From Deltaproteobacteria bacterium (GTDB lineage Bacteria > Desulfobacterota > Desulfuromonadia > Geobacterales > Pseudopelobacteraceae), in contig JAJXWO010000012.1 in assembly GCA_021781535.1 (NCBI GenBank), forward strand, positions 1 through 64,000: DNA of 64,000 nucleotides, read 5' to 3'. This document shows, piece by piece, positions 1 through 31,034 of the stretch (position 1 is its first letter; each line of letters begins with the position of its first letter). The translations under genes were made by a program, and so were the position numbers. The notes beneath the pieces are model-generated. The model was not told where the DNA came from, searched no databases, and was given only the letters and a program-made list of their open reading frames with translations.

Positions 1-3000
1 AGTCACCGTATCGTCCGGCAGCCCGGCAGCGCCATGATGGCGGGTGATTTCATTGCCGAGGATGGTCCCGACAACGCGATTGACATTGGTAATCGGCAGT
101 TCAGCGGTAACCTTTTCGCCCCGCTCGATTGCCGGCTGGCAGAGTTCAAGCAGCCTGGTCATGTCGATCGATTTTTCCAGGCCGTGATCCTGCTGCTCGG
201 TACAGTAGCGCCCAACGTTCAAGGCAACTTTCGGCTGATAAAGAATGTTGGAGAAATCGAGCCCCTGTGCCTTCCAATGGTCAATAGCCTTGTTGGACTC
301 AAGGACATCACAGCGGCCGACCATTTCATTCAAGGTGCGGAAACCGAGTTGCGCCATGATTTCGCGCAGCTCCTGGGCGACAAAGCGCATGAAGTTGACA
401 ACGTACTCCGGCTTGCCGCTGAAGTTTTTGCGCAGTTTCGGGTCCTGGGTCGCCACTCCGGTCGGGCAGGTGTTGCTGTGGCAGACGCGCATCATGACGC
501 ATCCCAAAGTCACCAGCGGCGCAGTGGCAAAACCGAATTCCTCGGCACCCAGGAGGGCGGCAATGGCTACATCGCGGCCGGTCTTCAACTGCCCGTCAGC
601 TTCGATAATGATCCGGCTGCGCAGATTATTCAGCAGCAGGGTCTGGTGCGTTTCGGCCAGGCCGAGCTCCCAGGGAAGGCCGGCATGCTTGATACTGGAG
701 ATCGGTGACGCACCGGTGCCACCATCATAGCCGCTGATCAGCACGACATCAGCATGGGCCTTGGCGACACCCGCCGCAATCGTTCCGACACCGACTTCAG
801 ACACGAGCTTCACGCTGATGCGGGCACGGCGGTTGGCATTTTTCAGATCATGAATCAGTTCGGCCAGATCCTCGATGGAATAGATATCGTGGTGCGGTGG
901 TGGAGATACCAGACCGACTCCCGGAGTAGTATGACGAGTCTTGGCAATCCAGGGATAAACCTTGGTGCCGGGCAGCTCTCCCCCCTCGCCCGGCTTTGCC
1001 CCTTGAGCCATCTTGATCTGCAGTTCACCGGCATTGGTCAGGTAATCGCTGGTGACGCCGAAACGGCCGGAAGCAACCTGCTTGATGGCACTGTTTTTTG
1101 AATCCCCCAGCTCGTTGGTCCAGGTAAAGCGCTCAGGGTCCTCGCCCCCCTCGCCGGTATTGGATCTTCCCCCGATGCGGTTCATCGCAATCGCAAGCGC
1201 TTCGTGGGCCTCCTTGCTGATCGAACCGTAGGACATGGCGCCGGTCTTGAATCGTTTCATGATTTCTTCTACCGGCTCGACTTCATCAAGCGGCACTGAA
1301 GGCATATTGTCCTTGAACTCAAGCAGGCCGCGCAGTGTGTACTGATGTGTACTCTGTTCGTCGATCAACGAAGAGAATACCTTGAATTCGCGATAATCGT
1401 CATTACGGGTCGCTTTCTGCAGCGACGTTATGGTTAACGGATTATACTGATGTTCTTCGCCATCCTTGCGCCATTGATACACTCCGCCAGGTGCAAGCGT
1501 CACCTCGGGGGCAACCCGCTCCGGATAAGCTCGGGCGTGGCGTTCCATCAATTCCCGGGCAATTCCGTTAATATCAGTCCCCCCGATACGCGAGGGCGTC
1601 CAGACAAAATAACGGTCGATCACGGATTGATGCAGGCCGACCGCTTCAAAAATCTGTGCGCCTCGATAGCTCTGCACAGTGGAGATCCCCATCTTGGCCA
1701 TAGTCTTTACAATTCCCTTGATGGAGGCCTTGATATAGTTCTTGACCGCTGTTTTGTGGTCGAGTTCCGGCAGCATCCCTTGCAGAATCATGTCATCTAA
1801 AGATTCAAAGGCCAGATAAGGGTTGATTGCATTGACACCATAGCCGAGCAGCACGGCAAAATGATGGACCTCGCGCGGCTCCCCCGACTCCAGGACAAGT
1901 GAAGCCAACGTACGAGTGCCGCTGGTGACGAGATGGTGGTGAAGGCCGGAAACCGCCAGTAGCGCTGGAAGAGCGGCATTATCTTTATCGACGCCACGAT
2001 CTGAGAGGATAAGTATAGTGCACCCGCTCTCAACCGCCACATCGGCAGCAGCAAAGAGAGCCTCCAGACCCTTCTCCATGGCGCTGGCACCTCGTGCCGC
2101 TGGGAAAAGCAGTGAGAGAGTTGCGGATTTGAAACCAGGGCGGTCAATCTGGCGCAGTTTTTCCAGTTCCTGATTGCCCAGCAGCGGATGCTGAAGCTTG
2201 ATCCTCCGGGCGTTCGCTGCTGTCGGCTCCAGTATATTGCCCTCTGAGCCGATCAACGTGAAGGTTGATGTGACAATTTCTTCACGAATGGGGTCAATAG
2301 GCGGGTTGGTAACCTGGGCGAATAATTGTTTAAAATAATTGTACAGCAGCTGATTCTGGCTTGAGAGCACTGCCAACGGCGTGTCGGTACCCATGGAGCC
2401 GAGCGGCTGGATGCCGTCACGAGCCATAGGCCCCAGGACAACACGCTGATCCTCATACGTATAACCAAAAGCCTGCTGGCGCTGAATCAGGTCAGCATGA
2501 TCCGGAAGCGGGGCATCAGGTACGGCCGGCAGTTCTTCGAGGGTTACGTGGTGTTCTTCCAGCCACTGGCGATACGGATTTGCTGCTGCAAGTTCCTTCT
2601 TGATTTCCTCATCGGGTACAATGCGCCCCTGCTCCGTGTCAACCAGGAACATCTGCCCCGGCTGGAGCCGGCCCTTGCTCAGGATACGGCGTGGTTCAAT
2701 CTGCAGGACTCCGGCTTCAGAGGCCATGATAACCAGATCGTCGTTTGTTATGTAATACCTGGAAGGGCGCAGCCCGTTGCGGTCAAGAACCGCCCCGATG
2801 CAACGGCCATCGGTAAAGGCGATTGCGGCAGGGCCGTCCCATGGTGCCATAAGACAGGAGTGATATTCGTAAAACGCCCTCTTTTCGTCACTCATGCCGG
2901 TGTGGTTTTCCCATGGTTCAGGCACCATCATCATGACGGCGTGCGGCAGCGAACGACCGCTCATGACGAGCAGCTCCAGACAGTTGTCAAACATGGCAGA

Positions 3001-3888
3001 ATCCGAACCATTATCATTGATAATCGGCAGCGCCTTCTTGATATCATCACCAAACAGGGCGCTTTCAAAAAGATTCTGGCGGGCGTTCATCCAGTTGACA
3101 TTGCCGCGCAGGGTGTTGATCTCACCGTTATGGGCAAGATAATGATAGGGATGGGCACGATCCCAGCTGGGAAAGGTATTGGTAGAGAAGCGCGAATGCA
3201 CCAGAGCAATAGCGGTTTCCATGGCAGGATCGCGCAGTTCGGGGAAGTACTGGTCTACCTGCACCGGCATGAGCATGCCCTTGTAGATTATGGTCCGCGT
3301 CGAGAGGCTGCAGACATACCAATGATCATCGACATCGGCACGCCTGATCTCGTTGGTTGCCCGCTGATTGATGATATAAAGTTTACGCTCGAAATCCTGT
3401 TCATCAATGCAGCCGAGCGGACGCTTGAGAAACAGCTGCCGCACCATCGGCTCCCCTTCCCAGGCGGTATTCCCCAGCGAAGAGTTGTCGGTGGGCACGT
3501 TACGCCACCCGAGCAGCTCTACCCCTTCTTCGACCAGGATCTTTTCCATAATATGCCGGGCAGCATTGCGCTCGGTCGCTTTCGGAGAGGTAAACACCAT
3601 GCCGACGCCATAGTGAAACGGCTCGGGGAGCTCAATGCCGAGTGGCGAACACACTGACCGGAGGAAGCTGTCCGGCATCTGCATGAGAAGACCGGCGCCG
3701 TCCCCGGTGTTCGGTTCACTGCCGGTAGCACCGCGGTGATCAAGATTTATGAGTACCTCAAGCGCCTGACTGACGATCTCGTGGGACTTTTTACCTTTCA
3801 TATTGGCGACAAAGCCGACACCGCACGCGTCATGTTCGAATCGAGGATCGTAGAGGCCCTGTTTAACTGGTCGTTTATTGGTTTTCAT
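1..3888 (-). CDS. gltB: Glutamate synthase large subunit, 3' end outside window
   Basis: The large (alpha) subunit of glutamate synthase makes glutamate from glutamine and 2-oxoglutarate in the cytoplasm. An open frame runs 1,296 codons from an ATG at 3888 and leaves the window without a stop. A short propeptide precedes Cys22 (DACGVGF), the N-terminal nucleophile of the class II glutamine amidotransferase domain. A central domain follows, then the FMN/synthase domain with [12 protein letters not shown] and [10 protein letters not shown]. Near residue 1130 the cysteine pattern of the 3Fe-4S cluster is visible ([16 protein letters not shown]). The family is about 1,500 residues, so roughly 200 C-terminal residues are missing here. 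A sigma-54 promoter about 70 bp upstream suggests nitrogen control. The small subunit gene is not in the window. Confidence 0.97.
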
Positions 3889-3954
3889 GGAAGCAGCCTT
3901 CGTAAACGTATTCTTTTTTGAGTTCCCCGCAACGGGGGCGGGTTATTTTTGTAA

Positions 3955-3969
3955 GCAGGGAGTGTGCCA
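3955..3969 (-). promoter_or_regulatory. Sigma-54 (-24/-12) promoter of gltB
   Basis: The minus strand reads TGGCACACTCCCTGC. GG and GC have the exact spacing of the sigma-54 consensus TGGCAC-N5-TTGC, with one mismatch in the -12 block. Transcription would start near 3943, leaving a leader of about 55 nt that contains a small CCCCG/CGGGG hairpin near 3923-3935. Sigma-54 control fits an ammonium-assimilation gene. This is a motif-based prediction. Confidence 0.75.
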
Positions 3970-4039
3970 GACTTTATGGGGAATGTGTCTGGTAACCAAA
4001 TTCTGTTCACTATGTTAACACGTTATGCCGGTCATTTTA

Positions 4040-4069
4040 GCAAATGAGGTGATTCATCAGTTCATTTGC
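4040..4069. promoter_or_regulatory. Dyad upstream of gltB, candidate activator site
   Basis: GCAAATGA (4040-4047) and TCATTTGC (4062-4069) are perfect inverted arms around a 14-nt centre that itself contains TGAT..ATCA. The dyad lies about 70-100 bp upstream of the gltB sigma-54 promoter, the usual distance for an enhancer-binding protein. It does not match the classical NtrC site, so the binding factor is unknown. Confidence 0.4.
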
Positions 4070-4134
4070 AGCGCAATCGTGAGTAGTAATAGCACTCGAA
4101 TGGGTACACAATCTTTTGACAATATCCACACAAG

Positions 4135-4236
4135 AGCCCGGGGTACGCCCCTGGAACCTCATGGCGGTGACCTTCACCAACAAAACCGCCCGGGAGATGG
4201 CCGAACAGGTCGACACACTGTGTGGGGGAGCACAGG
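4135..4236 (+). pseudogene. Fragment of a UvrD/PcrA-type helicase gene
   Basis: About 100 bp closely match 9844-9945 inside the intact helicase gene of this window, covering the codons for [20 protein letters not shown]. The copy has a 2-bp deletion and scattered substitutions, and no ORF extends on either side. It is a non-functional relic, either a partial duplication or the remains of a paralogous helicase gene. It sits among mobile-element remnants. Confidence 0.75.
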
Positions 4237-4288
4237 CAGGCTAAGATGAAACCGTTGAAAACAATTACAGTTAACCTTTTTGAGCGGA

Positions 4289-4385
4289 AGTTATTCGGCC
4301 ACCTTTGCCGATAGTGTCAGGGGAGGGGGAGTTGCTGGAGGCATATGTGACCTATGCCCGTTCAGTTTTAGTGGCCCCTTTGGTC
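4289..4385. repeat. Two imperfect transposon-end-like repeats
   Basis: AGTTATTCGGCCACCTTTG (from 4289) and AGTTTTAGTGGCCCCTTTGG (from 4364) align over about 21 positions with one indel. Repeats built around GGCC in this style resemble the multiple terminal repeats of IS21-type elements. No IS21 gene is present, so they would be remnants only. The family assignment is tentative. Confidence 0.3.
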
Positions 4386-4408
4386 AAGACAACAATCTGT
4401 TGAGTTTA

Positions 4409-4640
4409 CAGATGGTAGCCCGGCATATTGATGCACTTTTTCATACATACGCCCTCATGCTAGACGCTTCGCCAGAGCCGTTCTACAAAAATATTGTTCA
4501 ATCCCCGACCGCGGTCGTTCATGCTGATAGCGATGCTGTCCAACGTTAGGACACCGGTAAAAGCATCGCTCGTGAACGGGCATTCCTGGTCTTGTATTAA
4601 AGATTTCCGGTGTGCCGAATGGCCGAAGCGACTGTTCGAT
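4409..4640 (-). pseudogene. IS3-family transposase (orfB) remnant
   Basis: The minus strand encodes pieces of an rve-type integrase domain in two frames. FCIEQSLRPFGTPEIFNT comes first, then after a one-base slip DQECPFTSDAFTGVL and ISMNDRGRGLNNIFVERLW. These match the IS3-family pattern PEIFNTDQGSQFTS..ISMDGRGRALDNIFVERLWRS. A TAG stop directly follows the WRSV segment and a TAA closes the frame further on. The catalytic-domain upstream part and the N-terminal orfA are absent. The relic abuts the 3' end of the beta-barrel gene. Confidence 0.8.
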
Positions 4641-4649
4641 GCAAAATGG

Positions 4650-6125
4650 TCAGAAAGTAACCGTCAGCATCACTCTCTGGATATTGCCCCCCGGATTATA
4701 GTTAATCTTATTGGCAATACTGGAAAAGATATCGGTGCCGCCACCCGAACTGCCGCTGGCAGTGGTAGTAGTAGAACCCTGCACCGGCTTTTCGTTGGCA
4801 TCGTGGGTAGCGATGGGAATAAATTGTCCAAAAGCATAACCAACCGACAGATGTTCCCACCTGTAACCTAAACCAATAGAAAAGAACAGCATCTGGATAC
4901 GGTCCGTAGTTAACTTCAAGCTGCCTGCACCCGTCTTTCCCAATCCAAAGAGAAGACTGCGCCAGTAATCCAGTTGGGCAACCGGCCTGATATCCAGATA
5001 CTGACATCCAAGCCCCATTGAAAAATGCTCCCCCTGATATTCCGTCCCCAAATGGTACTGTTCACTTTTTAATTCTGCATTAAAAGTGTGGTTGTAGTTA
5101 CCGACGACCAATGATGGCCAAAAGCTGACTACCGAAGAACTGTTCGCAATCCCACCGCCATTGGCGGCAAGATCCCCCCGACGGTAGTTTGCTTCCACTG
5201 TCCAGTGGTCACCCAACTGTGCCCCCAGACCGATGCGATATTGCTGCCATGCGGTCGTTCCCTTGAGGTAGCCTCCCGGGTTTGCTGCGACAAAAAAATC
5301 CTGATTAAAATCAGTATAATGCCGTACATAGTCCCCGACAAGATACAGAGAAGCCGGCAGAGCCAGTTTGGCGGTGAAATGCCGATTGTCGGGATGTTTG
5401 AGCTCATTGGCATATTTTGCGTAGAATATGTCATTGTAATGCCAGGAGACATACAACTCATCAACATTTTCCTGATAATGTATCGGAACAGTCCCGTCAT
5501 TTCCAGAAAGTCTGACCGTAAAATCACCAGCAACATCAACGTATGACCGTTTGTAACCGACTTTAACGGATTCAAGCGGAGAAATCTCCAGTGTCAGGGG
5601 AATTTCGGGAGCACTGCGGTAATCCGTATCTACAACAGAAAGCCCCAGGGAAGCCTTGTCATTAAGCTTTAAAAACAACCCTCCTTTAACTGCATTGAAC
5701 TTTTCATCACTGGCTACAAAAACATCATCTTTGACGCTGGCAGCCTTGACATCAAACGAACGATAGCCATAACCAGCTGCCACATTGCCGGAAACATTGC
5801 CGTCCCAAAGGGAAAAAGGGGCGGCAATGGCGCTCTCCAGATGCTCTGCATAGGCATGGCTTCCTGCCCAGCTGCCGTTGTAAATCCTGATGGTGCGCTG
5901 GTTTTCATATGCCGTATCAAGCCGATATTTCCCCTTGCTGTCAAGAAACAGCGGTGACTGAAAATCGAGGTGGTCCCTCCCCTCCGGTAAACGCTCCATG
6001 CCGCCCCGGCTAAGCGAATTGATGCCGTCATCAACTAATAGGCCAACAATCTCGGTATAGGCAAAGACCCGGCCGGGAGCGCTCACAATACAAACAAACA
6101 GTAAAAACTTAATAAAATTGCGCAT
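4650..6125 (-). CDS. Outer-membrane beta-barrel protein, unrecognised family
   Basis: A 491-residue protein with a signal peptide (about residues 1-22, ending near RVFA). The rest has alternating hydrophobic and aromatic stretches typical of transmembrane beta strands, many Tyr and Gly, and the sequence ends VMLTVTF with a terminal Phe, as in BamA-assembled barrels. No named domain was recognised. It follows the 973-residue lipoprotein gene in the same direction, separated by 76 bp holding a hairpin with a T-run. Both genes lie behind the GEMM riboswitch at 9230-9325. A likely role is an outer-membrane channel or scaffold working with that lipoprotein, by inference from neighbourhood only. 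Downstream DNA is mobile-element debris. Confidence 0.8.
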   Translation of the reverse strand: MRNFIKFLLFVCIVSAPGRVFAYTEIVGLLVDDGINSLSRGGMERLPEGRDHLDFQSPLFLDSKGKYRLDTAYENQRTIRIYNGSWAGSHAYAEHLESAIAAPFSLWDGNVSGNVAAGYGYRSFDVKAASVKDDVFVASDEKFNAVKGGLFLKLNDKASLGLSVVDTDYRSAPEIPLTLEISPLESVKVGYKRSYVDVAGDFTVRLSGNDGTVPIHYQENVDELYVSWHYNDIFYAKYANELKHPDNRHFTAKLALPASLYLVGDYVRHYTDFNQDFFVAANPGGYLKGTTAWQQYRIGLGAQLGDHWTVEANYRRGDLAANGGGIANSSSVVSFWPSLVVGNYNHTFNAELKSEQYHLGTEYQGEHFSMGLGCQYLDIRPVAQLDYWRSLLFGLGKTGAGSLKLTTDRIQMLFFSIGLGYRWEHLSVGYAFGQFIPIATHDANEKPVQGSTTTTASGSSGGGTDIFSSIANKINYNPGGNIQRVMLTVTF

Positions 6126-6150
6126 CAGATCCCTGCTTTATCAATAAATT

Positions 6151-6176
6151 AAAAAAGGGCGGCCGATTGGCCGCCC
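6151..6176 (-). terminator. Intrinsic terminator or attenuator between lipoprotein and barrel genes
   Basis: GGGCGGCC-GATT-GGCCGCCC forms a perfect 8-bp stem, and on the minus strand it is followed by six T. It lies after the lipoprotein stop and before the barrel gene ATG. It would either end the lipoprotein transcript or let only part of transcription continue into the barrel gene. Confidence 0.7.
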
Positions 6177-6201
6177 CCGATTGAATTACCGACTGATCAG
6201 T

Positions 6202-9123
6202 TTAAAAGAACTGGCCGAGCAAGCCGGTAAGCTTGGCAACACCGCCGGCAGGTGTGCCGGCGAATTTGATGATTTTACCGTCTTCGATTCGGTAGAAGTA
6301 ACCGCCAACCATCACGCTACTGCCGCCAACATTGGCATAGGAAGCCACAACTGAATAGCTGGATGCCGGATCGCGCTTCTCGCCGTTGGTATAGAGGAAA
6401 CCATTCTGGAAGGCCAAGCTGTCCACGTACTCCGATGTGGTAAAAAGAGAAACATCGGTGGAGAGATTGCTCAATTTCCGCACCTCGGCCGAATCCGTCC
6501 CGGTCAGCTGATCCCAGCTGGATATGGCATAATAAATATCCGTACCGTTCGCAGTAACTGCAGCGGGGTAAGCATTTGTTGGGACGATATACTGGAACGC
6601 AGGGGTCGTCCCGAGTGTCAAGGTAGTCGTATCTGAGATGGAATACATCTTTAATGTCATATCATACACATTAGTCGTGGAGTTCAACGTCTGCTCCACG
6701 ATAATGGCATTTAGCTGGCCGTTGTAGAAGAGCAATTGCATAATATTAGCTGATGTTGCCAGATCGCCGACCTTCGTAACGTTTCCGGTTGAGAGAGCTA
6801 CTTTCTTTATGACGTAGTTATTTGTATATGTGTAGTTAACATTGTCATATGTATTGCCATTGTAAATCAGAATATAGGCAGAGGTGCCGTCTGACGTAAA
6901 CTGACCATAACCATAGTAGCCATTGTCCAGAGATTCACCGGTCAGCAGTTTACCATCGATCACAGGCAAAATGCCGTTAAAGCCGGCCACATTGTTAACA
7001 AGGGTATTGCCCGGCAGGATGCCGTTGAGGGTGTAGTCAGGCAGATCGCTCTTGGGGACAATTTCGGAAGAGATCGGATAATATTTGGTAATAGTATTGC
7101 CTGAATAATCAGTATAACTATAGGACCTCTCACCGGCTACCGGCGTGTTATACGTGACAGACAGCGTTACATCACGCGGTACGTCGTAACCAAAGATAGG
7201 AAGGTTAGCCCTGGTCAGCGGGTTGGTGAAGAACTTGGTGGCGTCGATAGTCACCGACTTGCCGCCGATGGTCCATACTTTCGCCCCCTGGAGCGATGCA
7301 GTTATATCAGTGAGGGCAGTCGTGAAGTCTGTTTTTTGCAATGTAGTCCAGCTTGCGAGATCGAATGAACCTGCCCCTGCAGCGCGTAGGACAAGGGTGT
7401 CGTAAGCGCTTTTAGCCTTCGCAGCCGCGGCTTGGGCATTTGTCAAGGCACCTGACATTTTTGCCGCCCCCCCGCTCTTGAGGGTAAAGACCGTTGCACT
7501 GTTGATCAGCGCCAGTGGGTCCTGGCCGATGGTATTGTAGTTATATGGAGAAGGGATGTCGAAGTTGTAGGCTGTGGCGGTCTTGAAAAGAACCTGGAAA
7601 AGATTCAAAGCCGCATCCAAGGTATAAAACTCGCCATCGTTCAAGGTCACGTCCCGACCGTTGATCGGGTTTCCCTGCATCGCTTTGGTCACGGTAAAGG
7701 AATAGCTGTTTCCTTCCACTTTTGCCAGACGGGCAAGGATCTTATCGATCCTGGGGATGATCACGTTGTCGATGAGGGTCTGCATTTCGCTGATGGTCGG
7801 CGCTGTAGTCGGCACCAGGTTCAGCTGTTTTGCCAGCGATTTGAAACCGGTCTTCTGCTGCGGCAGTTTGCCTTGCAGGGCTTTGAAAGCAGCCAACACA
7901 TCCTGGGCGCTGCTTGTTGATGCAACGGTCTTTGCCGTTGACTTCATAAGGGAAGTGCCGCTGGTGAGTTGGATGGAGGTCATGTTGCCGAATGGAAGCT
8001 TGATCGGGCTGGTCCCCTGGACAAACTGGTTCACCGTCGGCAGCATGCCGCCCCATTTCGTAACGATAGACTTGACGTCAGCATCTTCCATCAGCATCAG
8101 GCCGCTGGTGATCGCCCCGCCGAAGTTGGCCTCTTTGTTTGTCGGGTCCGCAACAAGGGCATTTTCATAGTTTATACTGGCGTTAGCAATATCCTGCTTA
8201 GTGAGATAAGCATTGGCCATAGTGACATATTCCGCAGCTGTCAACCCTGTAGCCGGTGTAGTCGATGCAGGCGGTGTGTAGCTTCCTGAAGCTGTTGTAA
8301 TTGTCTCGGTCGCGGTTGCGCTCGTCATGGTGGTTGCTGATGTGGCAGCAGAACTTGTGTTTGTGGCAGTGTTATAGACGATTGTCTGTACAGTTATGGT
8401 TGTTGTCGATGTCCCTGCCATGAAATCGTGGGCGTCAAGCTTTTGCGTGATCGCCGCATTGACGATCAGATAGCTGTTTATAAGGTCTGCTTTTGCCTGA
8501 GTATCAATGCTTGACACACTGCCGTTAGCGAATGCGGTAGCAAGCGTGTTGATCTGGCTTTCTAAGTTTGCTGGCTGTATGTCCGTGCGGATAGTTTCAG
8601 ATACAATCCCTACAGATACAGCTGCGGGAAGCTGGGAGTTTTCTTCGCCAAGCTTGATAGCTCCGGCGGTAAGGCTATATGTGGATGCTATCTTATTTTC
8701 CGCCATGACTACTGCTGTGGTGGAAACCGGGTTGACAGTCTGCGCTGCGACGGTTCCAACAATTACTTTTTCCTTCTCGATGAGTTTTTTTACGACCTGG
8801 TTGGTAGATGTCCTTTTTGCTTTCAGCACGTAATCAACGTTTGGCGTCAGTCCGGTAACTTCGTAGGAATAAATCCGCGTTGTTTGTGCATCGTCGTATG
8901 TGGGTTTAACGGTTGCAATCTTTTTCCCGTTAAGGTCGTAAACTTCAACAGCGATATCATTTTCCGTAACCAGTTTTGCGGTAGTCTTGGCAGTGGTTGT
9001 CACGTCTGGAAATTCTACTGCTCCTTTTAATGTGGTGGTAGTCGTCCCGGTACTACCGCCTCCACATGCCGACAAGAGTGTCAAGTTCAACAACAGGAAT
9101 AACCATAATAAATTTCGTTTCAT
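6202..9123 (-). CDS. Large lipoprotein with TPR-like segment, unrecognised family
   Basis: A 973-residue protein with a lipoprotein signal peptide; the lipobox LLSAC places lipidated Cys at residue 20, followed by a Gly/Ser/Thr-rich tether. Residues about 30-130 look like an Ig or carboxypeptidase-regulatory beta domain. Around 240-290 is a Ser/Thr-rich linker. Around 295-335 there is a TPR-like helical pair (AYLTKQDIANASINYENALV). A helical middle and a Tyr/Asn/Thr-rich C-terminal third with propeller-like beta repeats follow. No enzyme motif was seen. The ATG at 9123 has a strong AAGGAGAGG site. The gene is controlled by a GEMM-I riboswitch and terminator, and is followed by the beta-barrel gene. 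It is probably on the cell surface or in the outer membrane; function unknown. Confidence 0.85.
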   Translation of the reverse strand: MKRNLLWLFLLLNLTLLSACGGGSTGTTTTTLKGAVEFPDVTTTAKTTAKLVTENDIAVEVYDLNGKKIATVKPTYDDAQTTRIYSYEVTGLTPNVDYVLKAKRTSTNQVVKKLIEKEKVIVGTVAAQTVNPVSTTAVVMAENKIASTYSLTAGAIKLGEENSQLPAAVSVGIVSETIRTDIQPANLESQINTLATAFANGSVSSIDTQAKADLINSYLIVNAAITQKLDAHDFMAGTSTTTITVQTIVYNTATNTSSAATSATTMTSATATETITTASGSYTPPASTTPATGLTAAEYVTMANAYLTKQDIANASINYENALVADPTNKEANFGGAITSGLMLMEDADVKSIVTKWGGMLPTVNQFVQGTSPIKLPFGNMTSIQLTSGTSLMKSTAKTVASTSSAQDVLAAFKALQGKLPQQKTGFKSLAKQLNLVPTTAPTISEMQTLIDNVIIPRIDKILARLAKVEGNSYSFTVTKAMQGNPINGRDVTLNDGEFYTLDAALNLFQVLFKTATAYNFDIPSPYNYNTIGQDPLALINSATVFTLKSGGAAKMSGALTNAQAAAAKAKSAYDTLVLRAAGAGSFDLASWTTLQKTDFTTALTDITASLQGAKVWTIGGKSVTIDATKFFTNPLTRANLPIFGYDVPRDVTLSVTYNTPVAGERSYSYTDYSGNTITKYYPISSEIVPKSDLPDYTLNGILPGNTLVNNVAGFNGILPVIDGKLLTGESLDNGYYGYGQFTSDGTSAYILIYNGNTYDNVNYTYTNNYVIKKVALSTGNVTKVGDLATSANIMQLLFYNGQLNAIIVEQTLNSTTNVYDMTLKMYSISDTTTLTLGTTPAFQYIVPTNAYPAAVTANGTDIYYAISSWDQLTGTDSAEVRKLSNLSTDVSLFTTSEYVDSLAFQNGFLYTNGEKRDPASSYSVVASYANVGGSSVMVGGYFYRIEDGKIIKFAGTPAGGVAKLTGLLGQFF

Positions 9124-9180
9124 TTACCTCTCCTTTTTTTAGATAACTACCGCCTATGCGGAAAATACTGATCACAAATA

Positions 9181-9216
9181 AAAAACGCCCACTCTAGGCC
9201 AAGAACGGGCGTTTTT
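9181..9216 (-). terminator. Riboswitch expression-platform terminator
   Basis: AAAAACGCCC and GGGCGTTTTT form a 10-bp stem with a 16-nt loop, and the minus strand continues into a T-run. It begins about 20 nt after the GEMM aptamer and about 60 nt before the lipoprotein ATG, so it is the likely switch between early termination and read-through. The hairpin is symmetrical and could also work on the plus strand. Confidence 0.8.
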
Positions 9217-9229
9217 TAATTCAAAACTC

Positions 9230-9325
9230 CACTTGCTCTTCGGTAACCGGCAATCCATATATATGGACCCTTGGGTTTTGCGTCACCAGATTACTCTGAT
9301 TTTGCTCTTATCGGCAGCTGCACAT
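9230..9325 (-). ncRNA. GEMM-I riboswitch, cyclic AMP-GMP-type (GEMM-Ib)
   Basis: Read on the minus strand, the segment has the conserved GEMM-I parts in order: GATAAGAGCAAA, a stem CAGA/UCUG capped by a GUAA tetraloop, GUGACGCAAAACC, a second arm ending UCCAUAUAUAUGGA, and GCCGGUUACCGA. In the well-studied Vc2 aptamer the first motif is AGGGCAAA and its middle G (G20) contacts the ligand. Here the motif is AGAGCAAA, so the base at 9306 is A. That change is the known signature of Geobacter GEMM-Ib aptamers that prefer 3',3'-cyclic AMP-GMP over cyclic di-GMP. An intrinsic terminator follows. Ligand choice is inferred from this one residue. Confidence 0.88.
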
Positions 9326-9530
9326 TATGTATACATCATTTAATGTCTCATATATAAACTCTTTTAAGTTACTTATGCAAGAAGTTTATTTATTTTTAAT
9401 ATCAGACATTTTAAAATATCTTACAGGGATACGAGAAAGAGTTATTAACGTTAAAATCTTATGTACTGGCGTTGGATGAGGTATCAAACGCTCTAAACGG
9501 GCTTGACACCGTTCATCTTTGCATGACACA

Positions 9531-9645
9531 CCTGCCAGAGATGTGTTATGCGTAAGGTGTGCCGTGGAGCGGCGGTGCTAAAAAATGAGGGAAGATAACA
9601 ACGAGTTCCAACCATCGGCACGACCTGCCCAAAAACTGGCAGTCC
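9531..9645. other. Structured intergenic segment before the helicase gene
   Basis: Nested inverted repeats are visible: TGCCAG (9533-9538) with CTGGCA (9636-9641), and inside them GGTGTGCCGTGG (9556-9567) with CCATCGGCACGACC (9612-9625), pairing with two single-base bulges. The 44-nt apical part is purine-rich. The fold could be a small RNA or leader on either strand, or a decayed mobile-element end. No known family was recognised. The rest of 9326-9530 is AT-rich promoter-like DNA upstream of the riboswitch. Confidence 0.35.
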
Positions 9646-9700
9646 AGCCGAAGCCACGTTCACTCCGTCGTTCGACAAAAAAGGAACAAACTATATTCCC

Positions 9701-11998
9701 ATGACAACAGACCTCCTTTCCCACCTTAACACTCCTCAAAAGGAAGCCGTGCTGCACGGCGAAGGGCCGCTTTTGATTCTGGCCGGCGCCGGCTCGGGCA
9801 AAACCCGCGTTATCACCAACCGCATAGCACACCTGATTCGCGAACGGGGAGTACGCCCCTGGAACATCATGGCGGTGACCTTCACCAACAAGGCCGCCCG
9901 GGAGATGGCCGAACGGGTCGGCAAACTGCTGGGAGGGGGCGATCTGCCGCTTATATCCACCTTTCACGCTGCCTGCGGACGCATCCTGCGCCGCGACATT
10001 CACCATCTCGGCTTTCAATCCTCGTTTGCAATCTATGATGACCGGGACAGCGACCGACTGCTGAAAGACGTTATTGCCGAAATGGACCTTGATGAAAAGC
10101 GCTTTGCTGTCAAAGCGGTCTCCGGGCGAATTGATGACTTCAAGAACCGCGGCCTCTTTCCGGAGGATATCGGCTCCATCCCTCCCGGCGACGTCTATAA
10201 CCAGAAGGTGGTGGAGATTTACGCGACCTACCAGGAACGCCTTAAAAAATGTAATGCTCTCGATTTCGGCGACATGATGATTCAGACCGTCCGCCTCCTG
10301 TCCCGTTTCCCTGAAGTCTGCAGCTATTACCGGGAACGTTTTCAGTGGCTGCTGGTGGACGAATACCAGGACACCAACCCGGTGCAATACAGCCTGATTC
10401 GATTGCTGGCGGGGGATCGCCGCAACCTGTGCGTTGTTGGTGATGACGACCAGTCCATCTACTCATGGCGCGGGGCGGACATCCGTAATATTCTCGAGTT
10501 TGAAAAAGATTTTCCCGGCGTGAAAATCATCCGGCTGGAACAGAACTACCGTTCCACTGCCACCATTCTGGCCGCAGCCGGCGAGGTAGTGAAACAGAAT
10601 TTCGGGCGCAAAGGGAAGACTCTCTGGACTGAAAACCCGCAGGGAGAGAAGATCCACTACGAACGGGTCGAGTCCGACCGCGAAGAGGCCCGCTTTGTCA
10701 GGAGCGAGATTAGTCGCCTGAGAAACTGCGGCGTGCCCCTGGAGGAGACGGCCGTTTTTTATCGCACCAATGCCCAGTCCCGGCTGATTGAGGAAGCGCT
10801 GGTCAGCGGCGCACTGCCTTACCACATCGTCGGCGGCGTCCGTTTTTACTCCCGCATGGAGGTAAAGGATATTCTGGCGTACCTGCGGGTACTGGACAAC
10901 CCGGCCGATGAGGTCTCGCTGAAACGGATTATCAACGTCCCCGCCCGGGGCATCGGCACCACAACGGTGGACAAGATATCACTCCAGGCCGCCCGGCAGG
11001 GGGGCACCTTTTTTGACGCCCTGCGGGATGCCGCGCAGGATGGACTGCTGAGCGCCGGACCACGCGGCAAGGTTGGTGCCTTTGCCACCCTGCTGGAAAA
11101 CTTTAGTAAAACCGCCGCCACCAGCAGCCTGGCGGAACTGGCCCGCTCGGTCATGCAGGGGAGCGGCTATCTGGATCGCCTGAAGAGCAGCCGCGACGAA
11201 GAAGACGCCGAGCGCCTGGAGAACCTGGAGCAGCTTCTGGCTGCAATCGAGGAATTCAGTGAAAAGAACCCCGACGCGGGTCTGTCCGAATTTCTGGAGC
11301 AGGTCTCGCTGGTTTCCGATCTTGAACAGGGAGAGGCCGGCCAGCCATCAGTCACCCTGATGACACTCCACGCCGCCAAGGGGCTGGAATTCAAAGCGGT
11401 ATTCATGATTGGCATGGAGGAGCGCCTTTTCCCCCATGCCCGTTCACTGGACGATCTGGACGGCATGGAGGAGGAGCGGCGCCTCTGCTATGTCGGCATG
11501 ACCCGCGCCCGCGAACGGCTCTACCTGCTGAATGCCCGCAGGAGGTACCTGTATGGCCAGGAGCAGTGCAATCCGCCGTCGCGGTTTTTAAAGGATATAC
11601 CACCGGAGTTGCTGGATGATTCGGTGGACACGGGCAGAGTCTCCACCCATGCAATGGGCGCCACCCCCTATCCCTCTGCTGCTGAGAGAGGCTCCGTTGC
11701 CGCCTCAAGCCGAATACGAGGCGCTGGCGCTGCCATTACCCGACCCGAAAATACTGCTCCGGCCCATAACCTGTCCGCTATTGCCGGTGCCTTCAGCGAC
11801 GAAATTGAAATTGTCCCGGAACCGCCGGAAGAGCAAGACGGCGTCTATCTCGGCATGCGGGTGAAGCACGGCAAGTTCGGGGTCGGCACCGTTCGAAAAA
11901 TTGAAGGTGAAGGCGATGGGCAGAAGGTAGTAGTCTGGTTCAATTCGGTCGAGTGCAAGAAACTGATGCTTCGCTTTGCAGGACTGGAGCGGGCATAA
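9701..11998 (+). CDS. ATP-dependent 3'-5' DNA helicase, UvrD/PcrA family
   Basis: A 765-residue superfamily 1A helicase that unwinds DNA in repair and replication restart. Visible motifs are Walker A GAGSGKT (29-35), motif Ia TFTNKAAREM, Walker B DEYQD, motif III QSIYSWRGAD, motif IV QNYRS, motif V TLHAAKGLEF and motif VI VGMTRARERLYL. The C-terminal end (KHGKFGVGTV..GDGQKVVVWF) is the Tudor-like polymerase-binding tail of PcrA/UvrD. Length is usual. The ATG at 9701 has only a distant AAAGGA, about 14 nt upstream. A 100-bp relic of a related gene lies at 4135-4236. The gene stands alone, convergent with the MATE gene. Confidence 0.95.
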   Translation: MTTDLLSHLNTPQKEAVLHGEGPLLILAGAGSGKTRVITNRIAHLIRERGVRPWNIMAVTFTNKAAREMAERVGKLLGGGDLPLISTFHAACGRILRRDIHHLGFQSSFAIYDDRDSDRLLKDVIAEMDLDEKRFAVKAVSGRIDDFKNRGLFPEDIGSIPPGDVYNQKVVEIYATYQERLKKCNALDFGDMMIQTVRLLSRFPEVCSYYRERFQWLLVDEYQDTNPVQYSLIRLLAGDRRNLCVVGDDDQSIYSWRGADIRNILEFEKDFPGVKIIRLEQNYRSTATILAAAGEVVKQNFGRKGKTLWTENPQGEKIHYERVESDREEARFVRSEISRLRNCGVPLEETAVFYRTNAQSRLIEEALVSGALPYHIVGGVRFYSRMEVKDILAYLRVLDNPADEVSLKRIINVPARGIGTTTVDKISLQAARQGGTFFDALRDAAQDGLLSAGPRGKVGAFATLLENFSKTAATSSLAELARSVMQGSGYLDRLKSSRDEEDAERLENLEQLLAAIEEFSEKNPDAGLSEFLEQVSLVSDLEQGEAGQPSVTLMTLHAAKGLEFKAVFMIGMEERLFPHARSLDDLDGMEEERRLCYVGMTRARERLYLLNARRRYLYGQEQCNPPSRFLKDIPPELLDDSVDTGRVSTHAMGATPYPSAAERGSVAASSRIRGAGAAITRPENTAPAHNLSAIAGAFSDEIEIVPEPPEEQDGVYLGMRVKHGKFGVGTVRKIEGEGDGQKVVVWFNSVECKKLMLRFAGLERA

Positions 11999-12020
11999 TA
12001 AATAACAGCGTAAAACGACT

Positions 12021-17608: not shown

Positions 17609-17625
17609 TCTTGCTACTATACCTG

Positions 17626-17723
17626 CTTATCGAGAGTGGTGGAGGGAAAAGGCCCTGTGAAACCACAGCAACCGGTCACATGACGCCAGGTGCTAAATCC
17701 TGCCGCAAGGCAAAGATGAGAGG
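17626..17723 (+). ncRNA. SAM-I (S-box) riboswitch
   Basis: The S-box core is clear: CTTATCGAGAGTGGTGGAGG, GGCCCTGTGAAACC, CAGCAACCGG, AGGTGCTAAATCC, then AAAGATGAGAGG closing P1 against the 5' CTTATC. These RNAs bind S-adenosylmethionine and turn off methionine genes. The 3' P1 strand AUGAGA (17716-17721) can instead pair with UCUCAU (17749-17754) in the terminator loop, giving a readable antiterminator. It controls metX and probably ttcA. Confidence 0.95.
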
Positions 17724-17775: not shown

Positions 17776-18873
17776 ATGTCTGAAGATTACATCACTGAAC
17801 AATCCATAACCTTTGAATCCGGCATCCGTCTCGATAGCGGCCGGATACTGGCTCCGGTTACTCTGGCGTACGAAACCTACGGCACCCTTAACAAGCAAAG
17901 GACCAATGCCATTCTTGTTGAGCATGCCTGGACCGGCGATGCTCATCTGGCCGGAAGACGGAACGCCTCTGAAACAAAACCCGGCTGGTGGGATGCCATT
18001 GTCGGCCCTGGCCGCCTGCTTGATACCGACCGTTATTTTATTATCTGCTCAAATGTCATCGGCTCCTGTTTCGGCTCTACCGGGCCCACCTCGATCAATC
18101 CCAAAACTGGTAAACGCTATAACCTCTCTTTTCCGGTTGTCACCATTCGCGACATGGTTCGCGCCCAAAAACTGCTGATCGAAGCCCTTGGTATCGAGCG
18201 GTTACTGTCCGTCATGGGTGGAAGCATGGGGGGCATGCAGGCTCTGGAGTGGGCGACGCAATACCCTGACAGCATTGCTTCAGCGATTGTCCTGGCTACG
18301 ACACCGCGGCCGTCTCCACAAGCCATTTCGCTCAACGCCATCGCCCGCTGGGCAATATTCAATGACCCCACCTGGCGCAAGGGTGAATACAAGTATAATC
18401 CCAAAGACGGCCTGGCGCTGGCCCGTGGTATCGGCCATATTACCTTTCTTTCCGACGAATCAATGAACGCCAAGTTCGGACGCCGCTTTTCGGCACGGGA
18501 TGGCCAGTTTGACTTCTTCGGCCAGTTCGAGGTCGAGCGGTACCTGAATTATAATGGCTATAATTTTGTAGATCGTTTTGATGCCAACTCTTTTCTTTAT
18601 CTGGCCAAGTCCTTGGATCTTTACGATGTTTCCTGGGGATATGAGTCAATGTCCGAGGCTTTCAGCCAGGTCCAGGTCCCGATTCAATTCTATGCGTTCA
18701 GCTCTGACTGGCTCTATCCCCCGTATCAAACGGAAGAGATGGTCACCTGCCTCAAGGAACTCGACAAACATGCTGAATATCATCTAATTACGTCGGCATA
18801 TGGTCACGATGCTTTTCTGCTGGAGCATGAGACCTTCACCCCCATGGTGCGCGATTTTCTTGAGCGGATCTGA
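17776..18873 (+). CDS. metX: Homoserine O-acetyltransferase
   Basis: MetX activates homoserine with acetyl-CoA for methionine synthesis by sulfhydrylation. It is a 365-residue alpha/beta-hydrolase with the family-typical start ([26 protein letters not shown]). The nucleophile elbow GGSMGGMQ has Ser150; an Asp in the SSDWLYPP region and His in [11 protein letters not shown] complete the triad. MetX-type enzymes may use acetyl- or succinyl-CoA, and that choice is not resolved here. It sits directly behind a SAM-I riboswitch, consistent with methionine feedback. The stop at 18873 is one base before the ttcA start, so the two are one operon. Confidence 0.96.
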
Positions 18874-23436: not shown

Positions 23437-23465
23437 TTGACAGAGCATCGGCAATCAACTACCTT
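23437..23465 (+). promoter_or_regulatory. Promoter of the thiamine operon
   Basis: A perfect TTGACA (23437-23442), a 17-bp spacer and TACCTT (23460-23465) precede the TPP aptamer by a few bases. Confidence 0.65.
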
Positions 23466-23471
23466 GGTTTT

Positions 23472-23556
23472 GCTGGGGGAGTTTAGACTGAGAGCGGCTG
23501 ATATACGCCGCGACCCTTCGTACCTGATCCGGGTAATGCCGGCGTAGGGAAGCGCG
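23472..23556 (+). ncRNA. TPP (THI-box) riboswitch
   Basis: The thi-box core is present: GGGGGAGTTTAGACTGAGAG, an arm CGGC..GCCG, CGACCCTTCG, TACCTGATCCGGGTAATGCC and GGCGTAGGGAAGCG. It binds thiamine pyrophosphate and controls thiS-thiG-thiE. A terminator hairpin follows at 23577. Confidence 0.95.
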
Positions 23557-23576
23557 ACCGATTGTTGTATTCAAAC

Positions 23577-29719: not shown

Positions 29720-30929
29720 ACGACCCGTCGTTCTTGCCACAATTCTTTGCCGAATACATCGCCTCGTCGATCCGTTTGACAAACGGGATCAATTCTTATC
29801 CGGGCCGGTAACTGCCGCCGCCGATACTTATGGTCATATGGCACCGTTCTCCCGAGGCTGTCGTAAATTCCCGCTCCGCAAAAGCTCGACGCAATCGTTC
29901 GGCAACAACCTGTGATTCATCAGGAATCGTTTCCGGGAATATCACGATGAATTCCTCGCCACCATAACGATAGGCGGAGTCGGAACCGCGAATCTCCGTC
30001 CTGATGACCTCCGCCAGTCCCGCCAGCACTGTCGGCAGATTGTCGACAACAATAAGTTTATCGCCCGGCGCACATTCCATTGAATCGCGTAATTTTGCAA
30101 AAAAAGATTCCAGAGCTATATCCTGAACGGTTATTATTGCATTACCGACCCGGGAAAACTCCAGCAAGTCGGTCACCAGTTCATCGCCATGTCGCAAAGC
30201 ACTGCCGATCCCCTCGAAATAGCCCTGTTGCTCTTCGGTCAGCACCGGTTCAAGTTCTTCACGAAGAAAATCTGCATAGTTGCGTACGGCGCGAAGCGGT
30301 GCACGAATATCATGTGAAGCAACAAAGGCATATTGCGACAGCTCCTCGTTCGCCTGCTCCAAAATCGCAGCCTTCGCCACCAGCTCGCCATGCGCCTCCC
30401 TTAACTCTGCCGTGCGCAGGCGTACCAACCCCTCCAGATTGTCACGATACGTTTTCAAATCAGTTTCAGCCTGTTTACGAGCGGTAATATCCTGCAATGT
30501 TTCGATTACGTCGATCATGCGGCCGTTTGCATCGGTGATAGGAGAGGCCGTAAAAAAAAGCCAGACACCATCCTTTCCCATATCCGGGAAAAAATCTTCA
30601 GATTCATACGCTCCTTCAATAGTGCAGGAGCGGCGCCAGATATTGCTGTAGCGTCGATTTATTTCCTCGTCAGAAGCACCGGACATGATCAGATCAGCCA
30701 TGAGCGGGCGCTCCAAGGGATAAAATGCTTTCCAGGCCTGTCTGGTTCCAATTACTTCATCGGAGTCCAATCCGGTAATATGCTCACAGGCGCGATTCCA
30801 GAGGATAACCGTATTAGTTTCATTGATAACAAAGGTTGGGATCGGGCTTCCCTGTAACAGGTGACAGACTCTCGCCTGTTCATAAACCCGGCACATGCTT
30901 GCAGATCCTTCCGAGATCGCTTGTTTCAT
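29720..30929 (-). pseudogene. Broken sensor kinase fused to half a GGDEF domain
   Basis: From the ATG at 30929 (GAGG upstream) the frame encodes a PAS domain (SPIPTFVINETNTVILWNRA), a PAC segment, a coiled coil and a HisKA dimerisation domain with phospho-acceptor His (FVASHDIRAPLRAVRNYADF). The kinase then stops being recognisable at NLPTVLA, just before its ATP-binding domain, and joins LAEVIRTEIRGSDSAYRYGG, the middle of a GGDEF domain with a GGEEF motif. The Mg-binding first half of GGDEF is missing. After SIGGGSYRPG there is an in-frame TAA, and the domain's tail (KRIDEAMYSAKNCGKND) continues in frame after it. So both enzymatic domains are incomplete and the reading frame is interrupted. 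A residual PAS-HisKA polypeptide may still be made. Confidence 0.85.
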
Positions 30930-31034
30930 GATGAGCCTCGTGATATCGTAGTCTCCTATATTGTTGGCATGCCCCAGACGTAGTTTTGTTGCCTCGTGCC
31001 ACCAGCTCTGTACACAATTGAACGGATGCACCTA

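Follow-up and report, generated by a model that had tools for sequence, protein, structure and literature searches.

The window analysed here, that is, the whole stretch of 64,000 nucleotides at the start of contig JAJXWO010000012.1 from a deltaproteobacterium of the Pseudopelobacteraceae, carries three riboswitches as judged by cmscan: c-di-GMP-I, SAM and TPP. The first lies on the minus strand at 9316-9239 and matches the c-di-GMP-I model RF01051 over its full length (1-87) with 58.4 bits, against a gathering score of 35; its E-value is 7.9e-9 in the scan of the whole window and 1.1e-10 in a covariance search of the whole genome. The preliminary description of this DNA had read a GEMM-I aptamer core on this strand and had proposed scoring by covariance model, and the match above the gathering score bears the reading out. 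A pattern shaped on the aptamer matches the window a single time and never matched any of 100 shuffles. P3 contains one non-standard pair, and the P2 pairs and all ligand-site bases except that at position 20 agree with RF01051. The element is a riboswitch of the cyclic-dinucleotide class and adds a member to that known class.

The unusual base is the A at 9306 (minus strand), which the cmscan alignment sets at model position 11, unpaired and beside the two lower P2 pairs. By Vc2 numbering, we take this position to be that of the ligand-contact base Vc2 G20, and the claim that the equivalent of G20 is A here is confirmed by the alignment. The window aptamer is devoid of G20, the mark of c-di-GMP-selective GEMM-I, and has A20 as in the cyclic AMP-GMP riboswitches of the GEMM-Ib type. 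Its lower P2 pairs, G9305-C9280 and C9304-G9281 (9280-9305, minus strand), are of the canonical c-di-GMP type and are directly followed by A9279, the equivalent of A47. A weak P1, predicted between 9318-9316 (GCU) and 9237-9235 (AGC), closes the aptamer (9235-9318, minus strand). Upstream, a weak promoter-like site (ATGAGA-16-CATAAT, 9324-9351, minus strand) has 9 of 12 matches and would place the transcription start just ahead of the aptamer; sites this good number 8 within 4000-12000, compared with 6.9 in shuffles. The intrinsic terminator noticed earlier, 20 nt past the aptamer, was found again at 9218-9179 (minus strand), with 17 pairs and about -21 kcal/mol.

Behind the riboswitch, a ribosome-binding site (GGAGAGG, 9127-9133) precedes the start codon of a 973-aa lipoprotein (6202-9123, minus strand) with lipobox LLSAC, which has no haem motif and no Pfam family. 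A lipoprotein had been named as target, and this open frame corroborates it. A terminator-like hairpin (6155-6178) separates it from a gene for a 491-aa exported protein ending in F (4650-6125, minus strand), probably an outer-membrane beta-barrel. The 491-aa protein matched no Pfam or NCBIfam family and none of the solved structures, and a single-sequence prediction gave no usable fold (pLDDT 28.6). Both proteins would function at the cell surface. The earlier proposal that lipoprotein and barrel stand under one switch holds for the former; for the barrel gene the hairpin in between makes such control doubtful, and this gene would be coupled only by read-through of 6178-6155 or through a promoter of its own.

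The other two riboswitches are on the plus strand. The SAM riboswitch (17624-17722) lies before an alpha/beta-hydrolase gene (17776-18873), at a guess a homoserine acetyltransferase, which is followed by a PP-loop ATPase gene. The TPP riboswitch (23465-23567), with a terminator-like hairpin discerned by eye, precedes a small frame that looks ThiS-like (also by eye), together with thiG and a gene for thiamine monophosphate synthase.

The riboswitch, lipoprotein and barrel gene form a cassette of about 5.56 kb (4150-9710) between the gltB side and uvrD. By PurA (98% and 97%) the window contig groups with its two nearest relatives, G086 and G095, in which the cassette is absent from the site: about 168 bp separate there the equivalents of window 1-4150, on the side of gltB, and of 9710 onward, on that of uvrD. 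The G+C content of the cassette is 0.486, compared with 0.552 and 0.567 in the flanks, and at its far end lies an 81-bp copy (91%; 4140-4220, minus strand) of the 5' part of uvrD (9848-9928). At the gltB end, a short stretch at 4490-4560 (minus strand) resembles by eye the end of an IS3-family transposase; the fragment, of 26 residues near 4500, gave no Pfam match. Lipoprotein matches occur in 10 of the 141 genomes of the order, including its own, and are full length in three others, where the barrel gene follows; neither G086 nor G095 has one. Conservation of the riboswitch together with the operon was considered and is not supported: none of the nine homologue loci, covered for about 1.5 kb upstream (683 bases only for L022), has an RF01051 match above the cut-off, and five of them have none even at E up to 1. 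In the three genomes that keep the pair no GEMM-I was found in the upstream DNA covered, and the riboswitch was therefore either joined to the pair in the lineage of the window or lost in the others.

Aptamer types and a lipoprotein-associated subgroup

The genome to which the window belongs has 20 GEMM-I matches, 19 of them above the cut-off. Typing on base 20 and on the two base pairs of the lower P2 placed 17 of these in three groups: 11 with A20 and the pairs C21-G46/U22-G45 (A20/CU), two with A20 and the canonical pairs G21-C46/C22-G45 (A20/GC), namely the window aptamer and L002, and four with G20. Of the 20 own aptamers the typing script left 3 untyped, one of which is degenerate, and of 58 others it left 11; a few odd types may be mis-set; by eye, the three own ones are A20/CU (L018), G20 (L006) and degenerate (L020). 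The window, with G-C/C-G, is without the lower P2 of the Geobacter cyclic AMP-GMP type, a criterion of our own that comes from the typing and from the U-G pair of pilM (PMC9262584). Since C21-G46 is found with G20 as well, in 6 of 26 typed loci of the genus and in 2 of 21 in G058 and G064, the lower P2 is an imperfect marker of the ligand.

Several other loci are worth recording. L002 (1501-1575 of contig C87), the second aptamer with A20 and canonical P2, has its own terminator and a hairpin that is possibly an antiterminator; it may be contamination, its contig being 4.3 kb long and its P2 resembling one of another genus (G068). Six aptamers (L072, L074, L079, L080, L083 and L087) combine G20 with a lower P2 of C-G/C-G (GCCAAA...GGAAA), between the c-di-GMP and the cyclic AMP-GMP types. 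L064 and L070, of the genus of the window, were typed as C20 with the canonical scaffold, possibly a further ligand variant. The G20 aptamer L236 (contig C21) precedes, at a distance of about 1.2 kb, a gene whose product has a GGDDF domain and a C-terminal part that looks EAL-like by eye; this could form a feedback loop.

The arrangement of the terminator differs between the types. Its 5' arm lies within the aptamer in 10 of the 12 own A20/CU aptamers, the other two, L012 (a weak hairpin 61 nt off only) and L018 (none), being scored as not found; in both A20/GC aptamers and in 4 of the 5 own G20 aptamers the terminator is separate, 13-33 nt past the aptamer. With the arm inside the A20/CU aptamers, ligand and terminator exclude each other, which is an ON logic. 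By sequence, the window aptamer is nearer to the G20/GC than to the A20/CU aptamers of the order, with mean identities of 81% (n=16) and 75% (n=6) over aligned positions, gaps omitted, for those of 20 loci of each type that a pattern cut out; within its own genome the ranges overlap (70-85% to G20 and 72-80% to A20/CU).

Across the order, pattern matches to A20/CU were found in 114 of 141 genomes, to G20/GC in 77 and to A20/GC in at most 29, an upper figure since several of the 46 rows are by eye not aptamers (e.g. G029, G034 and G035). In a pattern scan of named genomes, A20/GC matched at least 118 stretches, which by record title belong to Bacillota, Desulfuromonadales, Omnitrophota, Chloroflexi, Actinomycetota and others; A20 on a canonical scaffold is common outside Geobacter.

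The window aptamer is one of eight that form a subgroup, in six genomes of the order: the window, two each in G032 (Citrifermentans bremense R1) and G046, and one each in G038, G030 and G049. They share the invariant core CCGATAAGAGCAAA...GACGCAAAACC...GGTTACCGAAGA; of ten distinct cores that matched in the search, L099 and L129 were left out as their leader and P2 differ. The seven other members score 52.6-65.0 bits with RF01051 and are 87-99% identical to the window aptamer (aligned positions, gaps omitted). Two-sided changes were seen in 6 of 20 aptamer pairs among the eight sequences (4 in P2, 2 in P3), a count that omits the partly misaligned terminator columns. A20 is kept in all eight, as would be expected under selection for another ligand, and is partly circular as evidence given that the search patterns required A20.

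The first gene behind the riboswitch encodes an outer-membrane lipoprotein in 7 of the 8 loci and a multihaem protein in none (0/8); the operons include TraT (twice), LPP20 proteins (two operons), a CsgG/LpoB cluster and unnamed lipoproteins. A fixed lipobox rule, which misses TraT (LLPGC), finds 5 of 8 first genes (7 of 8 with both TraT), compared with 1 of 20 for G20/GC (Fisher p 0.003) and 3 of 20 for A20/CU (p 0.02); these p values, for 5/8, are uncorrected and count related loci separately, and the comparison loci, from related genomes, were chosen by the analyst and include some doubtful open frames as first genes. The literature search recognised no paper describing the subgroup, which may well be in print. 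A non-cytochrome lipoprotein had also been put forward as a new kind of target, which it is not: the cyclic AMP-GMP regulon of G. sulfurreducens includes a lipoprotein transpeptidase operon (PMC6456294). The ordinary A20/CU switches of the lineage control lipoproteins too, and those of the window's own genome include some before an MtrC-like multihaem cytochrome, another multihaem cytochrome, an L,D-transpeptidase with an Lpp-type lipoprotein, and a DUF4382 lipoprotein, which agrees with that regulon.

Terminator and sign of regulation

The gene for the 973-aa lipoprotein would be controlled by transcription attenuation. A predicted antiterminator hairpin (9201-9240, minus strand) pairs AAGAGC (9240-9235), which includes the 3' strand of P1, together with the linker, with GUUCUU (9206-9201) of the 5' arm of the terminator. 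In the best fold of the window RNA before the 3' arm of the terminator exists, the aptamer core is kept and the antiterminator is formed. Ligand binding would close P1, and closed P1 would withhold its strands from the antiterminator, so that the arm is released, the terminator forms and the lipoprotein is switched OFF. The P1 strand that pairs with the arm is the 3' strand in the window and the 5' strand in four relatives, and in either case closing P1 favours termination; an OFF switch is accordingly the sign to which we lean, with some reserve. The opposite sign is a weaker though serious candidate. In the full-length fold of the window RNA an alternative pairing of 9280-9274 with 9230-9222 breaks the aptamer, and this would make the ligand an ON signal.

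Across the ten sequences folded (the eight members of the subgroup and two from outside), the antiterminator varies. In four of them the leader is the partner of the arm (0.24-0.67), and the linker is its best partner in four others: the window (mean pairing probability 0.71), L214 (0.60), L252 (0.38) and L099 (0.27). In L216 the arm pairs with the body of the aptamer, and L129 yielded no plausible terminator. Four relatives have a P1 whose 5' strand (GGGCUGCU) complements the terminator arm, at -12.0 to -15.3 kcal/mol. Over the eight members of the subgroup, binding of leader to arm beats shuffled leaders (z -4.9), and matched pairs are no better than swapped ones (-8.45 vs -8.21). The pairing of linker and arm, which is the design of the window, is not clearly above shuffles (z -1.35) and is weaker than in swapped pairs (-8.72 vs -9.38). 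Covariation support for the antiterminator was not obtained from the alignment, which misplaces two terminators.

The P1 of the window, with 3 pairs (duplex -3.6 kcal/mol), is weaker than that of five members of the subgroup, which have 5 or more pairs (-6.7 to -8.1), and is matched in weakness by those of L251 and L252. Together with the insertion of the cassette, as judged against the two closest relatives, this could suggest that the aptamer is a passenger, a riboswitch that does not work in its new host, its terminator uncoupled and its gene constitutively attenuated. Such decay agrees poorly with P2 pairs and ligand-site bases that, except for A20, fit RF01051, and with a core invariant across the subgroup, and it is considered very improbable. 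A working attenuator, probably of OFF sign, is the preferred reading.

Cyclic AMP-GMP synthesis and the choice of ligand

The lineage very probably makes cyclic AMP-GMP, judging from the signatures of its GGDEF proteins, and the tie between lineage and messenger drawn in the preliminary description finds support here. The signature of synthesis is Ser or Thr at the selectivity position (PMC9140294). Each of the two nearest relatives, G086 and G095, has a GacA orthologue with Ser, and the own assembly holds L058 (contig C125), a frame of 444 aa in which a GGDDF domain, with Ser in the selectivity position, follows a membrane/HAMP-like part. The second synthase of G. sulfurreducens, GSU1937, is likewise of the HAMP type with Ser and GGDDF (PMC8835794), and by this combination of features L058 is likely the organism's own synthase. 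The own assembly also encodes a GGDEF domain of the Thr type (L054). Another candidate for this role, the GacA-like L049 (contig C9; Ser, GGDEY), was set aside, being 97% identical to a sequence of another genus (G068); contamination of the assembly is 8.9%, and the contig is probably foreign. In its place the evidence was taken from G086, G095 and L058. Within the window, a 411-aa frame at 29796-31031 (minus strand) with PAS and HisKA domains and no more than the later portion of a GGDEF domain has the look of a chimaeric or decayed signalling gene; the GGDEF match at 29730-30029 in the whole-genome search reads across one TAA.

Whether A20 assigns a ligand is a separate matter. According to PMC9262584, the counterpart of G20 contributes to selectivity and is no hard filter, point mutations in the lower P2 alter selectivity, and c-GAMP riboswitches are said, citing Keller et al., to bind c-di-GMP still, via a protonated A. 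In Desulfobacca acetoxidans, an A20 aptamer that closely resembles neighbours binding c-di-GMP has acquired affinity for cyclic AMP-GMP and largely kept that for c-di-GMP, which is perhaps slightly reduced (PMC9481103). Of the preference for cyclic AMP-GMP that had been read from A20, the base itself is upheld; A20 alone does not assign the ligand. Nor can it serve as the sole sign of one here, in view of the canonical lower P2, the different platform and the occurrence of A20 in genomes in whose GGDEF domains the Ser/Thr signature was not found.

The last point comes from four genomes with A20/GC aptamers, Cellulomonas triticagri, Cryobacterium tepidiphilum, Planococcus citreus and Papillibacter cinnamivorans, in which all 42 GGDEF domains found were checked and none carries Ser or Thr in the selectivity position; the count covers synthases of the GGDEF kind. 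In three of the 42 the aligned residue is N, and two of these domains are degenerate, with unreliable alignment. The aptamers of Papillibacter and Planococcus, to which 20 of the 42 domains belong, match RF01051 strongly; those of Cellulomonas and Cryobacterium match the sibling model RF03167 (c-di-GMP-I-GGC) best and make a weaker comparison. Two genomes of the window's genus, G106 and G108, had been considered as further genomes without cyclic AMP-GMP synthesis, and their use is weakened by one Thr-type GGDEF domain in each (no Ser, among 13 and 25 domains, respectively). The likely synthase of the organism itself (L058) and the two less apt comparison genomes shift the odds on the ligand little.

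Given the binding of the A20 aptamer of D. acetoxidans and the presence of A20/GC in genomes without the signature in their GGDEF domains, dual binding is to be expected over clean selectivity. An aptamer with useful affinity for cyclic AMP-GMP and c-di-GMP alike is tentatively favoured, a little short of an even chance; a preference for c-di-GMP is a distinctly smaller possibility, and strict selectivity for cyclic AMP-GMP is more doubtful again.

Two fuller readings follow from the one-sided cases. The element could be a c-di-GMP riboswitch that tolerates A20, cyclic AMP-GMP being irrelevant to it in the cell. The 0/42 count in distant genomes, the closeness of the window to G20/GC aptamers of the order and the c-di-GMP binding via protonated A attributed to Keller et al. 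(as cited in PMC9262584) all point this way; the marked gain of cyclic AMP-GMP binding in D. acetoxidans (PMC9481103), the overlapping identities in the own genome, and the limits of the count, restricted to GGDEF domains and with two of four aptamer sets fitting RF03167 best, weigh against it, and it is rather unlikely. The other reading, which stays closest to the preliminary description, is of a cyclic AMP-GMP-selective ON switch like those of G. sulfurreducens. It would account for A20 at 9306 in a genome with 11 typed aptamers of the ordinary cyclic AMP-GMP type, with GacA orthologues bearing Ser in G086 and G095 and a GSU1937-like Ser/GGDDF protein of its own, and ON logic is published (PMC6456294 and PMC9262584). 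Yet the lower P2 of the window is of the c-di-GMP type, its terminator is separate where that of 10 of the 12 own A20/CU aptamers has an arm inside the aptamer, and the printed A20 example among highly similar c-di-GMP aptamers was not selective (PMC9481103). This reading is improbable, and an aptamer open to both ligands is retained as the working view.

Comparison with known systems

The subgroup points to a lipoprotein regulon, possibly of a sign opposite to that of the ordinary switches. In its boldest form, which we regard as improbable though worth stating, a branch of A20 aptamers on the canonical scaffold in Citrifermentans and relatives would turn haem-free outer-membrane lipoproteins OFF in response to cyclic AMP-GMP, or to both dinucleotides, while ordinary cyclic AMP-GMP switches within that cell turn cytochromes ON, and the branch would spread by cassettes. 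If this were true, one messenger would remodel the outer membrane in two directions. For annotation, A20 alone should not serve to name cyclic AMP-GMP switches, and the co-existence of A20/CU, A20/GC and G20 aptamers in one assembly offers a natural set for finding the determinants of ligand choice.

Among known systems, the GEMM-Ib cyclic AMP-GMP switches of Geobacter, e.g. those of pgcA (GSU1761) and pilM (Gmet_0970), resemble the window riboswitch in A20, in related genomes and in lipoprotein or surface targets. Those of this type in the own genome differ from it in that they have the pairs C21-G46/U22-G45 and mostly use their own 3' strand as terminator arm, and the window does neither; GSU1761 itself presumably has this lower P2. 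With the GEMM-I c-di-GMP-I riboswitches (RF01051; Vc2 and Cd1), the window has in common the full aptamer, the canonical lower P2, A47-A48, the 3' CCGAA and a separate downstream terminator, the last as in 4 of 5 own G20 aptamers; unlike them, it has A and not G at position 20. A20 is shared with the cluster-3 aptamer of Desulfobacca acetoxidans, which, unlike that of the window, stands in tandem with AdoCbl riboswitches (PMC9481103). The nearest counterpart is the riboswitch before traT of Citrifermentans bremense (L141), whose aptamer is about 99% identical (gaps omitted) and whose target is also a lipoprotein; it differs in its longer P3 loop, its stronger P1 and the complementarity of its leader with the terminator arm, and the lipoprotein it precedes is unrelated to that of the window.
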